Below, one piece after another: positions 1 through 9,062 of a DNA stretch of 42,822 nucleotides (positions within the stretch are counted from its first letter, which is position 1; each line of letters starts with the position of its first letter). The notes under the pieces are model-generated. The model made no database searches, was not told the DNA's origin, and was given only the letters and a program-made list of their open reading frames with translations. Source of the DNA: an uncultured Flammeovirgaceae bacterium (GTDB lineage: Bacteria > Bacteroidota > Bacteroidia > Cytophagales > MED-G16). The translations under genes were made by a program, and so were the position numbers. Location of the stretch: positions 1 to 42,822 of the forward strand of contig CAJXDN010000010.1 of NCBI GenBank assembly GCA_913052485.1. The letters are read 5' to 3'.

Positions 1-44
1 GATTGTGGTTCAGGAGGTCGCCGGTTCGAGTCCGGTCTTCCACC
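1..44 (+). tRNA. tRNA-His (GTG), 3' part, cut by window start
   Basis: The window begins inside the anticodon arm. Positions 5-7 read GTG (histidine anticodon) after the invariant T at 4. The 3' anticodon strand is TCAGG (10-14). A full T arm follows: GCCGG (20-24), loop TTCGAGT, CCGGT (32-36). The 3' acceptor strand CTTCCAC (37-43) is followed by discriminator C at 44, which is characteristic of bacterial tRNA-His. CCA is not encoded. A T-run at 46-51 may end the transcript. Whether the missing 5' half is intact cannot be seen. This copy may be the genuine gene, or another 3'-end repeat like the one at 705-748. Confidence 0.75.
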
Positions 45-150
45 CTTTTTTCTTACAATGCTTACAGTTTTTTCCTCTACAATATAAATAATTCTGACAG
101 TTATTTGACAGTTATTGATTAATCAATCTTTTAAGGCCTTTAAGGTTGGA
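1..150 (+). repeat. att-like repeat unit A (tRNA-His 3' end, iterons, palindrome)
   Basis: The unit has three visible parts. The first is a 63-bp core (1-63), identical to 705-767 and covering the tRNA-His 3' end, T-run and flank. The second is three related 10-mers: TTACAGTTTT (62-71), TGACAGTTAT (95-104) and TGACAGTTAT (106-115), the last two exactly 11 bp apart. The third is the palindrome TTGATTAATCAA (115-126) followed by a TTTTAAGGCCTTTAAGGTTGG tail (to about 149), also found in unit B. A tRNA 3' end flanked by direct repeats is the usual plan of an integrase attachment site (core plus arm-type sites). No integrase is in the window, so that role is inferred. Confidence 0.7.
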
Positions 151-177
151 TGATGATTCAAAAGAGTTATGTTTTTT

Positions 178-630
178 TTAAAGAGTTTGTCCAAAATATG
201 ATAAAGCCTGGAGTATTGGTGTAGAAAGGCCCAAGACTTTTCCATAGCTGAGATTTTTTTTAAATAAAATAATTATTCCTGATATAATTGCTGGTATTAT
301 TAATGCCCCAAAAAGAGAACCAAATAAACTTGCTAAATCAGCGCTAAACTCACCAGTAATTACCACATATATAAATGATGATAATACTGCAACAACATAA
401 CCAATATATTTACTAACATCTAAATCTATTGTTGTTTCAACTTGATTTGAATTACTTTCTATTTTATTATTTTTTAATACATTAGAGTATTCACCGCTAT
501 TATATTTATTATCCAACTTCAATTTTTCATCATTATCTTTTTTATTGTATTTGTCTCTCAAATCACTAATCTCTTTTAAAGAAATTTTTCCGTTATTATA
601 ATCATCTTCTATTTTTTTTATATATGACAT
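178..630 (-). CDS. Cassette protein with 2-3 membrane segments, unknown function
   Basis: A 150-residue protein that I do not recognise. The N-terminal half (1-65) is very polar and rich in Lys, Asp and Asn. Its first 27 residues (KIEDDYNNGKISLKEISDLR) recall the short helical SHOCT-type motif, but the match is weak. The C-terminal half has hydrophobic stretches at about 73-92, 98-122 and possibly 128-147, so it is probably an inner-membrane protein with a cytoplasmic head. There is no signal peptide. It is the only gene between repeat units A and B and reads toward unit A, its stop lying about 28 bp from the conserved tail. This placement suggests a cassette cargo gene. Confidence 0.6.
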   Translation of the reverse strand: MSYIKKIEDDYNNGKISLKEISDLRDKYNKKDNDEKLKLDNKYNSGEYSNVLKNNKIESNSNQVETTIDLDVSKYIGYVVAVLSSFIYVVITGEFSADLASLFGSLFGALIIPAIISGIIILFKKNLSYGKVLGLSTPILQALSYFGQTL

Positions 631-660
631 AGATTTAAACTTAATTTTAATTCATCCCTT

Positions 661-852
661 AATCTAAAATTTTTTATGCCAAAATGCAAAATGGAGGTGA
701 GTCTGATTGTGGTTCAGGAGGTCGCCGGTTCGAGTCCGGTCTTCCACCCTTTTTTCTTACAATGCTTGCACTTCTCTTAGAAATAAAGATATAAAATCTT
801 GGCACTTATCTGGCACTTTGATTAATCAATCTTTTAAAGCCTTTAAGGTTGG
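661..852 (+). repeat. att-like repeat unit B
   Basis: This is the second full unit. A 5' segment (661-700, starting AATCTAAAATTTTTTAT) is shared with unit C. The core 705-767 is identical to 1-63. Three related 10-mers follow: TTGCACTTCT (766-775), TGGCACTTAT (800-809) and TGGCACTTTG (811-820). Their layout matches unit A, but the motif is GCACTT where unit A has ACAGTT. The palindrome TTGATTAATCAA (818-829) and the tail CTTTTAAAGCCTTTAAGGTTGG (to about 852) close the unit. Between core and palindrome the two units agree only in layout, so the ends are conserved and the iterons have diverged. Confidence 0.7.
691..748 (+). pseudogene. tRNA-His-like sequence lacking the D arm
   Basis: Upstream of the core repeat, ATGGAGG (691-697) can pair with CTTCCAC (741-747) at six of seven positions, counting one G-T wobble. 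Only four bases (TGAG) separate it from the anticodon stem TCTGA (702-706), where a normal tRNA has a D arm of about 18 bases. Anticodon stem, GTG anticodon (709-711), T arm and C73 are all present. It is most simply a decayed duplicate of tRNA-His that lost its D arm; the same short spacing recurs in units C and D. A functional D-armless tRNA is not excluded but is unlikely in a bacterium. Confidence 0.5.
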
Positions 853-895
853 GTGTTAATTAAAGAAAATTATATAATCATAGATTTTTGGTAAT

Positions 896-1294
896 TTAAT
901 CCTTCTTAATGAAGGATATTCTATTTGTCACTCTTCTACATACTTTACCACTTCCACACGGAATCATACTTGACTGACTATCTCTATCTACAATTTTGTA
1001 TCCATAAAACCTAAAGAATTCTATTACAACAGGCATCATATTTTTTTCAGGTTGCATTACTTTTCCATCTATTTTAATAATGACTTTTTTCCATTTTTTA
1101 AAAGAAAATACTGGTCTGGTGTCAACTTCTATAAATCTTCCAACAAAAATACCTTGAGCCCAAGAACTGTAATCAATTAATGCATCTTCTGAAACATTTC
1201 TAACATCAAAAACTTCTCCTTTCTTATTAGTAATAATCTGACCAAATGAATTAAAAGATATAAATAAGAGGATAAATAGTATTCTCATACTCAC
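896..1294 (-). CDS. Small secreted cassette protein, unknown function
   Basis: A 132-residue protein that I do not recognise. It starts with a clear signal peptide (hydrophobic LFILLFISFNSFG, likely cleavage before QIITN at about residue 19). The mature part is about 110 residues with two cysteines near the C-terminus (PCGSGKVCRR) that could form a disulphide or hold a metal. MSMR and the internal MRIL (two codons later) are both possible starts. It is the only gene between units B and C, and like its neighbour at 178-630 it reads toward the unit on its left. The conserved AATCTAAAAT segment of unit C begins right at its start codon. Confidence 0.55.
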   Translation of the reverse strand: MSMRILFILLFISFNSFGQIITNKKGEVFDVRNVSEDALIDYSSWAQGIFVGRFIEVDTRPVFSFKKWKKVIIKIDGKVMQPEKNMMPVVIEFFRFYGYKIVDRDSQSSMIPCGSGKVCRRVTNRISFIKKD

Positions 1295-1375
1295 AATCTA
1301 AAATTTTTATACTGTAATACAAAATGGAGGTAATTCTAGATTTAATTAATCAACCTTTTAAGGTCTCTAGGATTG
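1295..1375 (+). repeat. att-like repeat unit C, internally deleted
   Basis: This decayed unit keeps the 5' segment (AATCTAAAATTTTTAT at 1295-1310; ATGGAGGTAATTCTAG from 1324, matching unit B from 691). It then jumps directly to the 3' tail (TTTAATTAATCAACCTTTTAAG from 1341, ending near 1375). The tRNA anticodon loop, T arm, 3' acceptor strand and iterons are missing. It supports the view that both ends define one repeat unit and that the middle can be lost. Confidence 0.55.
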
Positions 1376-1431
1376 TATATGTTATATTTTGTTTTATTTA
1401 ACTAATTATTTTAAATTAAAAAAATTTAATA

Positions 1432-1875
1432 ATGTTAAAAATACCTCCCCCACTTATAGTTTTAGTTTTAGTAATATCCATTTATTTTTCATCAACTAAA
1501 TTAGATTTAATTCATATACCATTTCAACTCCAAATATCAATTTTTATACTTTCTGTTGGAATACTTATTTTTATAAATCCAGTGGTGCAATTCATAAAAT
1601 CAAAAACTACTATAAATCCTATCAAGTTCGAGGAAACTAATAAACTAGTAACATCAGGAATTTTTAAATATTCAAGAAATCCTATGTACTTAGGCATGTT
1701 GATGATCGTTATATCTACATCAATATTTTATTTAAATATTTGCTCTATACTAGCACCTTTTTTATTTTTATTATGGATAAATAAATTTCAGATAAAAAGA
1801 GAAGAGGTTTTTCTCGCAGAAAAATTTGGTAAAGAGTATTTATCATACAAGAAGAAAACTAGAAGATGGATTTAA
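1432..1875 (+). CDS. Isoprenylcysteine carboxyl methyltransferase / PEMT-like membrane methyltransferase
   Basis: A 147-residue membrane protein with hydrophobic segments at about 5-22, 35-50 and two across 83-118. The stretch TSGIFKYSRNPMYLGMLM (about 77-94) followed by KREEVFLAEKFGKEYLSYKKKTRRWI at the C-terminus is the typical signature of the ICMT/phospholipid-methyltransferase family: the R-N-P-M-Y motif and the conserved E-E-x-x-L...F-G-x-x-Y. These enzymes use S-adenosylmethionine; bacterial members have mostly unknown substrates. Length is normal for small bacterial members. It lies alone between units C and D and is the only plus-strand cassette gene. The family is clear, the substrate is not. 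Confidence 0.8.
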   Translation: MLKIPPPLIVLVLVISIYFSSTKLDLIHIPFQLQISIFILSVGILIFINPVVQFIKSKTTINPIKFEETNKLVTSGIFKYSRNPMYLGMLMIVISTSIFYLNICSILAPFLFLLWINKFQIKREEVFLAEKFGKEYLSYKKKTRRWI

Positions 1876-1893
1876 TTTTTTTATACCCACATG

Positions 1894-1944
1894 CAAATTG
1901 GAAATTATTCTGATTATGGTTTACGAGGTCGCCGGTTAGCACCC
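1894..1944 (+). repeat. att-like repeat unit D, decayed tRNA-His 3' end
   Basis: CAAATTGGAAATTATTCTG (1894-1912) aligns base for base with the unit B segment CAAAATGGAGGTGAGTCTG. The tRNA part ATTATGGTTTACGAGGTCGCCGGTT matches unit B until a deletion of 14 bases or so removes the T loop and half of the acceptor, leaving AGCACCC (to 1944) and a T-run. The anticodon would read ATG, so it is not a working tRNA. No iterons or palindrome follow. It marks the right end of the cassette region; ordinary single-copy genes start after it. Confidence 0.6.
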
Positions 1945-2014
1945 TTTTTCAATTAATTTTTCTTTTAATTAATAGTGTTCTTTCCTAAATTAAGTAAAAT
2001 TAAAAAAATAGATT

Positions 2015-2296
2015 ATGAATAAATATTTAATTAAAAGAGAAATCGAGGGTGCCTCTCAAATACCTTCGGAAAAACTTGAGGAGATTGGACAGGGGTCAGA
2101 ATCAGTTCTTGTCCAGATGAGAAATGAGGGTAAGAATATAGAGCAAGAACAAAGCTATGTGGCTGGCAATAATGTCTTCTGTGTTTATAATGCAGACTCA
2201 GAGGAAGTAGTAAAAGAACACGCAGAGCGAGCTGGAGTTCCTGCAAATGAAATAACTCTTATTTCTAGTGTATTGGAACACAATACAAATAAGTAG
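2015..2296 (+). CDS. DUF4242 domain protein
   Basis: A 93-residue protein covering a single DUF4242 domain: K-Y-L-I-K-R-E-I at the start, an EEIGQGSESVL helix, E-Q-S-Y-V, then F-C-V-Y-N-A and VKEHAERAGVPANEITLI near the end. Proteins of this family are small ferredoxin-fold proteins, one of which (Streptomyces SCO4226) binds nickel; the general role is unknown. No signal peptide, so probably cytoplasmic. It starts a plus-strand series of small genes (2015-4522), with a 24-base gap to the next. Function beyond family is not known. Confidence 0.75.
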   Translation: MNKYLIKREIEGASQIPSEKLEEIGQGSESVLVQMRNEGKNIEQEQSYVAGNNVFCVYNADSEEVVKEHAERAGVPANEITLISSVLEHNTNK

Positions 2297-2320
2297 TAAT
2301 TAGATTATTTAAAAGAAAAA

Positions 2321-2530
2321 GTGAAAAAACAGAAGTTGATAGCAACAGTTTGTGCTGTGTTATTATGCATTTTGATGATTGCCTCAGATTATCACGGATA
2401 TACAACAGAGATGGCAGTTATTGAGTTTAAAGGTGAAGTTTTTGATAAAAGCTTTACTCCCAGTTGGGGAAGTTTTATTGTTCCTCTATCAATTTTAGTG
2501 ATTGCTTTTTTACCAAATTCAAAAAAATGA
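2321..2530 (+). CDS. Small two-helix membrane protein, unknown
   Basis: A 69-residue protein with a GTG start and two hydrophobic segments (about 5-22 and 48-64) separated by a short polar loop. I do not recognise a family. Its TGA stop overlaps the ATG of the next lipoprotein gene (ATGA at 2527-2530), which supports it as a real, translationally coupled gene. The loop probably faces the periplasm by the positive-inside rule, since both termini are lysine-rich. Confidence 0.5.
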   Translation: MKKQKLIATVCAVLLCILMIASDYHGYTTEMAVIEFKGEVFDKSFTPSWGSFIVPLSILVIAFLPNSKK

Positions 2531-3009
2531 AGAAAACATTTTTAATTATAATATCATCATTGATTTTTTCTTGTTCTGTAACGAAAGAAAATTCGCTAAA
2601 CAGAAAAAATCTTGAAATGGCTCAATCTTTTCTTGATAATATTATCAGCAACCCAGAAAAAGCTCAGAGTCTTCTACACAAAGACTTTACATTCGCCTGG
2701 ATGGGGATAATAGAGCAGGGAGGAAAAATTTGGAATAGAGAAAATTTATTTGATGAGTACTTTAAAAACATAATTCCTGAGATACTTCCAAACGGGATAG
2801 TGTTAAAGACAGTTGATAGTATTTCTGACGAAAACGGAGTGGCTATAATACAAGAGGGCGATGCAGAGGGTAAGAACGGTGAGTATGACAATAAATATGT
2901 TTGGATTTTTAAAATGAAAGATGGCCTAATATATTCTATTAGAGAATATAATAGTGATATCCTTGTTGCTACCCAGCTATATGACTATAAATTAGTAAAC
3001 GTTAAATAA
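2527..3009 (+). CDS. NTF2/SnoaL-like lipoprotein
   Basis: A 160-residue protein. I place the start at 2527 (MKKTFLIIISSLIFSCSVT), which gives a lipoprotein signal with lipobox-like I-F-S-C; an upstream in-frame ATG would spoil it and lies inside the previous gene. The mature part has the features of a cone-shaped NTF2/SnoaL-like fold: an early helix (AQSFLDNIISNPEKAQSLL), then H-K-D-F-T-F-A-W, a central loop, and paired strands ending in a tyrosine-rich tail. No catalytic residues are obvious. Members are a mix of small-molecule enzymes and binding proteins. A second protein of this type lies at 6502-7050. Confidence 0.6.
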   Translation: MKKTFLIIISSLIFSCSVTKENSLNRKNLEMAQSFLDNIISNPEKAQSLLHKDFTFAWMGIIEQGGKIWNRENLFDEYFKNIIPEILPNGIVLKTVDSISDENGVAIIQEGDAEGKNGEYDNKYVWIFKMKDGLIYSIREYNSDILVATQLYDYKLVNVK

Positions 3010-8163: not shown

Positions 8164-9062
8164 TAATCTAATATAAATGAATTAGGATAAATATCTAAAA
8201 TTTGTATGAGGTCAGTATCATTAACAGTAGGCACTAAAATATTATCCTCCCTTCTAAGAATTATAAATATTGAATCAGAATTTGTTAACTCTTCGTCTCT
8301 CCTAAATTTATAGGTTACAACCACAGATGTATCTAGATTATAATCATTTTCATTAAAATTTACATTTAATCTAACTTCTTCTTTAATATATTCAACTACT
8401 TTAAAATTTAGATTAATAATTTCTGGTGAAACAGATATTAGGTCCCCAACTATATCTACGCTTATATTCTCATTAAAATCTGAATTTAAGTCCGATACTG
8501 CTTTAGAATTAATATAGTACTGGTCAGGCAAAGAATTTAAAATTGATTGCGGTCCCTCTACAGATAACTTATCGTTAGATAAGATAAAATCACTTACCCT
8601 CTCATGCCCTGAAGTAAAAAAAAATTTTGATGTGTCTACTAAAACCTCAATCTGCTTTATACTTTTTTTTTCAATATTTATAAGAATTGAGTCTGTAACA
8701 ACATAATTTAAATTGACATTTTCTAGGGTCTCGGATATATAGGGAACAAGTGAACTAGATAAAATAAATTTTGTTTGTAGAGGTCTGTTTATATTATACT
8801 CGACATCTACTATATTTAATTTCAATAAATTCCTAAGTAAATTCCACCCAGTGCCATTAATGGAAATCTCTACGGTCTTAGGTGGTGGAGTAACCTCTAT
8901 CAGTTCTTCAGATAATTCATAATTAAAGTTTATTGGATAATTCATTGTTGCGTTTGAGGGATTATTTAGTTCGTTAAAAAACCAAATTAAGGATCCGGCA
9001 ACAAAACAATAAAGTAGGATTTTTGGTTGAGAAATAAGATTTGAGGGACTAAACTTCCTCAT
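8163..9062 (-). CDS. YbbR-like domain protein
   Basis: 299 residues. An N-terminal membrane helix (PKILLYCFVAGSLIWFFNEL, about 13-32) is followed by an extracytoplasmic region with YbbR-like beta-rich repeats: PPPKTVEISINGTGWNLLRNLLKL (about 60-83), I-E-V-L-V-D-T-S, and VEGPQSILNSLPDQYYI. YbbR-type proteins (CdaR in Firmicutes) bind and regulate diadenylate cyclase in some bacteria; in the Bacteroidota their role is not established. The place between yajC and coaE is typical of Flavobacteriia and supports the call. Confidence 0.8.
   Translation of the reverse strand: MRKFSPSNLISQPKILLYCFVAGSLIWFFNELNNPSNATMNYPINFNYELSEELIEVTPPPKTVEISINGTGWNLLRNLLKLNIVDVEYNINRPLQTKFILSSSLVPYISETLENVNLNYVVTDSILINIEKKSIKQIEVLVDTSKFFFTSGHERVSDFILSNDKLSVEGPQSILNSLPDQYYINSKAVSDLNSDFNENISVDIVGDLISVSPEIINLNFKVVEYIKEEVRLNVNFNENDYNLDTSVVVTYKFRRDEELTNSDSIFIILRREDNILVPTVNDTDLIQILDIYPNSFILD

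Follow-up and report, generated by a model that had tools for sequence, protein, structure and literature searches.

How does a row of tRNA fragments, with one small gene in each interval, come to stand at the start of a bacterial contig? Our answer, to which we give a probability of about two in three, is that small elements lacking an integrase, usually of one gene each, were inserted serially into tRNA-His by a phage-type tyrosine integrase that is not their own. The window analysed here is one entire contig (C10), 42,822 bases long, of the source genome G000, whose assembly comprises 1.19 Mb in 29 contigs and is 77.7% complete. An earlier note on this DNA had described an exact 63-bp repeat carrying the 3' part of tRNA-His. 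Indeed, positions 1-63 and 705-767 are identical over 63 bases, and the first 45 bases of each copy make up the 3' half of tRNA-His (anticodon loop through CCACCC), with a 100% match to the intact tRNA-His of the same genome (G000:C15:22621-22695). The spacings of 704, 633 and 574 bp given in that note are also correct. Its partial copies stand as related sequences, since the matches at 1295-1342 (E 2.3e-4) and 1874-1937 (E 1.4e-10) are above chance in a whole-genome search. Its claim that each repeat carries a tRNA copy does not: 1295-1375 is a left arm followed by a right-arm tail, with the core absent and no tRNA sequence, and the truncated copy at 1874-1944 has a core reduced to 29 bases at 90%.

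A full junction consists of three parts. First comes a left arm whose end is a truncated tRNA start; next, the 3' half of tRNA-His (the core); last, a right arm that contains a direct repeat with 11-bp spacing (TGRCASTTATTTGRCAS) as well as TTGATTAATCAATCTTTT. All junction parts are given on the plus strand. The fullest junction in the window, at 655-865, is made of left arm 655-704, core 703-749, which spans the anticodon stem to CCACCC, and right arm 750-865 with the arm-type direct repeat TGGCACTTATCTGGCAC at 800-816 and TTGATTAATCAATCTTTT at 818-835. The first core copy (1-45) opens the contig and is followed by a right arm at 46-165, with TGACAGTTATTTGACAG at 95-111 and TTGATTAATCAATCTTTT at 115-132. 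Genome search and alignment place a second left arm, its core lost, at 1295-1342; the core-less right-arm tail lies at 1341-1375, and a decayed left arm with 29 core bases at 1874-1937. Because the end of left arm 655-704, CAAAATGGAGGT, is close to the native tRNA-His start CAAAATGGTGGT, this arm seems to be a displaced tRNA that lost its D-arm region. In Rfam, the corresponding G005 junction is scored as a tRNA at 30.2 bits.

The window units measure 704 bp and about 590 bp (all unit sizes, here and in relatives, are approximate), with a single gene in each. Cassette 1, between the cores at 1-45 and 703-749, has no integration or transfer genes of its own, and its gene (178-630, minus strand) encodes 150 aa with a hydrophobic C-terminal half. 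Cassette 2 has lost its outer core; its gene (896-1294, minus strand) is listed at 132 aa, likely starts at an ATG at about 1288, and has an apparent signal peptide. The lengths of these two reading frames were reached in 0 and 2 of 2000 shuffles, thus both are longer than expected. Neither gene has a relative at E 1e-5 among 380 genomes of the order, G000 alone containing them, nor a match in Pfam and NCBIfam. The third gene is of another kind. This PEMT/ICMT-type methyltransferase gene (1432-1875, plus strand) occurs as one copy in each of 8 family genomes and therefore is not a variable cassette now. Hence the single-gene cassette array proposed earlier comes down to two clear cassettes beside a conserved neighbour.

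Base 1 of the window falls within the tRNA-His 3' half, and the array begins there solely because the contig does. There is no intact tRNA within the 42,822 bases. A whole-genome search found only one other strong core copy in the G000 assembly, the intact tRNA-His on C15, downstream of pyrC (dihydroorotase-like) and about 1.1 kb from the contig end; after it comes part of a larger element whose far end is lost in the assembly gap. In G008 (record CACOFQ010000004.1, labelled uncultured Marinoscillum, and presumably a single-cell genome, judging from the style of its isolate name AH-321-C20), pyrC, tRNA-His and the right-side genes are on a single contig, about 12 kb apart. Since G008 has both flanks on one contig, C15 and C10 are most likely two sides of one island. 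The left flank is fixed, as pyrC is next to tRNA-His in all ten family genomes where it was found, and the methyltransferase gene recurs on the right side in related genomes (records labelled Marinoscillum, Cytophagales and Bacteroidota). Five genomes of the genus gave a match neither to pyrC nor to the methyltransferase; their assemblies probably lack the region. Incompleteness affects several of the compared genomes, and the core is a frequent breakpoint of contigs. A second contig of G005 has the flank genes directly after tRNA-His, which is perhaps an empty site but may also be contamination or a second locus, and we place no weight on it. The order of the methyltransferase and SnoaL-like genes at 1432-3009 differs among the window, G008, G005 and G012, therefore the right side of the island was rearranged too. 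The window array forms the inner portion of a hotspot for integration at tRNA-His.

Do relatives carry the same units? Comparing species with species, we nowhere saw the same genes in the same order, and the earlier reading as a cassette array is partly supported by unit-by-unit variation between the fixed flanks and by integrase-type arm sites in the units. G012 has a one-gene unit of 1133 bp and a two-gene unit of 2490 bp; in G009 a unit of 1212 bp holds three small genes, and two others measure 770 and 1428 bp; G005 has one of 1536 bp with one gene. In G008, units of 872, 683 and 1876 bp hold a single gene each, that of the last being of GmrSD restriction type, and beyond them a stretch of about 7.5 kb contains a type I restriction system as well as an integrase. 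G010 has units of about 875, 700 and 1317 bp, then an integrase-bearing element. The 78 island genes across relatives fall into 51 families, 37 of them seen once. The window contig does start in a repeat, as would be expected from an assembly artefact, or if the tRNA region had been duplicated in tandem and passed on vertically. In our opinion this explanation is scarcely credible, given that every interval holds different genes and that arrays occur in independent assemblies of several species, including 100-kb-scale contigs (CACOFQ010000004.1); the gene content of relatives refutes it.

A tyrosine integrase (348 aa, PF00589 47 bits) lies within the tRNA-His island of G008 and G002, its start facing the core with an arm repeat in between; in the G002 copy, the N-terminal end is disrupted. 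The G010 island has an integrase fragment cut by a contig end. Three relatives thus have an integrase in the island, and in two it is beside a core with a matching arm repeat. In other bacteria, homologues are found next to different tRNAs, again with paired arm repeats of a similar kind. One with 64% identity (AG-914-G02) belongs to an element of about 10.5 kb that is flanked by two copies of the tRNA-Asn 3' part and has TTGGCA-type repeats at each end, and another with 47% (a Polaribacter record) adjoins a tRNA-like sequence with TTTGGCACACTTTTGACAC. Such repeats beside the G008 and G002 integrase and its homologues indicate that the repeat travels with the integrase family, and this association makes the direct repeat a putative arm-binding site.

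The earlier note had considered that an integrase located elsewhere might mobilise the array and had advised looking for a tyrosine recombinase to the left of the window. An integrase is indeed found in the same island of three relatives, while none of this family was found in G000, a 77.7% complete genome. What C15 does have is the arm repeat TGGCAGTTATTTGGCAG, plus a noncoding stretch that over 198 bases shares 69% identity with its counterpart in the integrase elements of G008 and G010. Judged by this resemblance, a relative of the integrase elements starts right after the intact tRNA-His of G000, so the enzyme need not lie far away, and the missing gene may be in the gap just left of the window. 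The recombinases on C2 and C7 (301-316 aa, XerC/XerD-sized) and the 390-aa one on C9 were considered as movers and rejected, having no link to the arms; the surrounding stretches, as far as they were read, showed no tRNA.

The larger elements have features of their own. The noncoding stretch is conserved near their left end (L005:12990-13184, L037:7796-8150, L034 reversed 8338-8692; 69% across species) and corresponds to no Rfam family; it is possibly a structured RNA or an origin. In the integrase-side tRNA-His copy of L066 (9855-10007) and L067 (9833-10009), as in the tRNA-Asn junction of L068, an insertion separates the D-arm from the anticodon stem, which may silence the displaced tRNA. 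A family of small basic proteins (MRVKTGGRKKGTPNK-like, about 70-108 aa) recurs across the larger elements (L034:10557-10811 on the minus strand, L068:19463-19678, L132-L134). AG-914-G02 also has arrays of small genes (L068 reversed 9.4-20.8 kb; L132-L135), many with a repeat ahead that is the reverse complement of the last ~50 bases of the integrase gene plus a promoter-like block; this repeat has 24 matches in that genome, in 4 clusters.

In the reading we prefer, the integrase would move the cassettes, in an order of events that we infer as follows. Supplied in trans or in cis, it would stack single-gene elements, each bringing its own tRNA-His 3' half, so that the tRNA remains intact and the older 3' half is pushed outward, marking the previous insertion. 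The enzyme would come from larger elements using the same site, such as the one starting right after tRNA-His in G000, and older junctions would lose their core and become fixed. Several findings count against this reading. The typical arm repeat is on one side only of the cassettes, no integrase of the family was found in the 77.7% complete G000, and among the assemblies compared neither an excised circle nor gain or loss within a species was seen. In G008 the core is missing at three inner junctions and kept at the outermost, a poor fit to simple ageing by distance. A three-gene unit, nearly identical in G007 and G009, bounded on the right by a core and with different neighbours beyond, means that units do not always have one gene.

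The ends of the cassettes bear on two other explanations. Eight left arms from five genomes have, on the reverse strand, a common block like TTTTGCATTTTGGTATAAAAATTTTAGATTGAAGGATG, and the cassette gene is on the minus strand at all eight; reverse-strand reading of left arm 655-704, for example, leads into the gene of cassette 1. In most of them the start codon is about 6-11 bases past TAGATT, being farther in window cassette 1 and in G005, and a ninth left end (G010 5077) is more divergent with a similar layout. The left end may thus be inferred to provide the gene with its promoter and start codon. A G010 gene agrees with that of cassette 2 over 93 bp at 87%, covering arm, start and signal peptide, despite which the mature proteins are unrelated. 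This stretch, which begins in the left arm and reaches into the start of the coding sequence, together with arms and cores that are similar repeats long enough to recombine, would suit units that move with imported DNA by RecA-dependent homologous recombination, with no integrase at all. We consider that improbable, for it leaves unexplained the tRNA 3'-half target, the integrase-type arm repeats and the integrase at the same core.

Each unit could instead be the last remnant of a full integrase-bearing element after near-total deletion. Elements that lost their integration and transfer genes while retaining att sites are described as cis-mobilizable elements, or CIMEs (PMC5704250), full elements do occupy this tRNA-His site in relatives, and the gene units of AG-914-G02 are preceded by stubs of the 3' end of the integrase gene. 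Outside full elements, however, no remnants of the integrase gene or of the 84-aa gene were found in the tRNA-His arrays, and the left ends that the cassettes have in common are unlike the integrase-side ends; simple deletion from the known integrase elements therefore does not account for the cassettes. Cassette ends could have been replaced, which would make the absence of remnants compatible with decay, and we regard such an origin as unlikely rather than improbable. More ambitious, and only tentatively put forward, is a dedicated one-gene cassette system with conserved ends, its left end combining integration sequence, promoter, start codon and sometimes a signal peptide, with a phage-type integrase acting in trans and stacking at a tRNA.

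The attachment sequences are confined in their distribution. Under a strict cut-off, 9 of 390 sampled genomes of the order match the attachment segment, all nine in the family, and no match was found outside it. The 211-base junction segment has matches in 8/12 genus and 11/15 family genomes, some of these being to the tRNA portion only. Matches to TTGATTAATCAATCTTTT occur in 9 genomes of the family, against none for its reversed control; within the genus of the window, these matches are on contigs of island or array type. The left arm surrounds unrelated genes in five genomes of two genera, the right arm in more. In G014, of another genus, core-less junctions of left and right arm are dispersed away from tRNA-His (L061, L064, L084, L090, L096), one of them preceding a DEAD-box helicase-like gene. 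Matches to tRNA-Asp in G007 and G011 were rejected as tRNA similarity only. In IMG/VR, neither the integrase nor either of the two arm patterns had a match.

Which known systems does this resemble? An identity with integrons, whose logic had been invoked earlier, finds no support, as the integrase scores 33.6 bits against an IntI cut-off of 265 and by that measure is not an integron integrase; where attC sites might be sought, the junctions read as left arm, tRNA core and right arm. Integron cassette arrays without integrase (CALIN) are rows of single-gene units with one recombination site each and the recombinase elsewhere. The present array is similar in all three respects, whereas its core is tRNA-derived with arm sites, its cassette end contains promoter-like sequence, and its putative integrase is of a non-integron type.

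The find belongs among rows of units bounded by tRNA or tmRNA and among additive islands, as a variant in its miniature size, dedicated ends and apparent expression signals. Of Dehalococcoides ssrA islands, 15 have no integration module and were proposed as CIMEs (PMC3146451), and mobility through the recombinase of a neighbour was proposed for CIMEs and tandem accretion (PMC3146451, PMC5704250). Those, too, are tandem units bounded by a tRNA or tmRNA 3' end, many without integration genes, and cassette 1, with flanking attachment sites and no integration or transfer genes, has the composition of a CIME. In contrast to them, the units here are mostly 0.3-2.5 kb, often of one gene, associated with a tyrosine recombinase, and have conserved ends of their own unlike integrase-element ends. 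Additive flexible genomic islands are known in Alteromonas (PMC4119200), and repeats in fGI-2 of Methylophilaceae are the last 20 nt of tRNA-Lys (PMC10872708); sizes down to 330 bp were reported (PMC4119200, PMC10872708). A conserved tRNA target with displaced 3' copies, content varying between conserved flanks (here at the species level) and many unknown genes are common to them and our island; ours differs in that the arm sites, a matching integrase and the build of the cassette ends have been resolved. As described in PMC10872708, tycheposons of Prochlorococcus are 4-200 kb cargo elements, likewise tRNA-bordered, with a tyrosine recombinase, in streamlined marine bacteria; units here mostly have a single gene, and a tRNA-targeting recombinase is absent from the window cassettes and present in the full elements of relatives. 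What is unusual is the dedicated ends, from which the genes appear to receive promoter and start codon.

Gene content still varies among streamlined marine bacteria, and the routes by which single genes enter them are poorly known. The bacterium studied here is marine and has a small genome; at this tRNA-His site, gene sets differ among the related species we examined, and what is known of the integrase, the site and the cassette ends now suffices for a direct test. Should a dedicated cassette system be true, it would amount to integron-like gene collecting built from different parts. If the cassette ends bring expression signals and the integrase is borrowed, one tRNA would serve as a loading dock, gene by gene.
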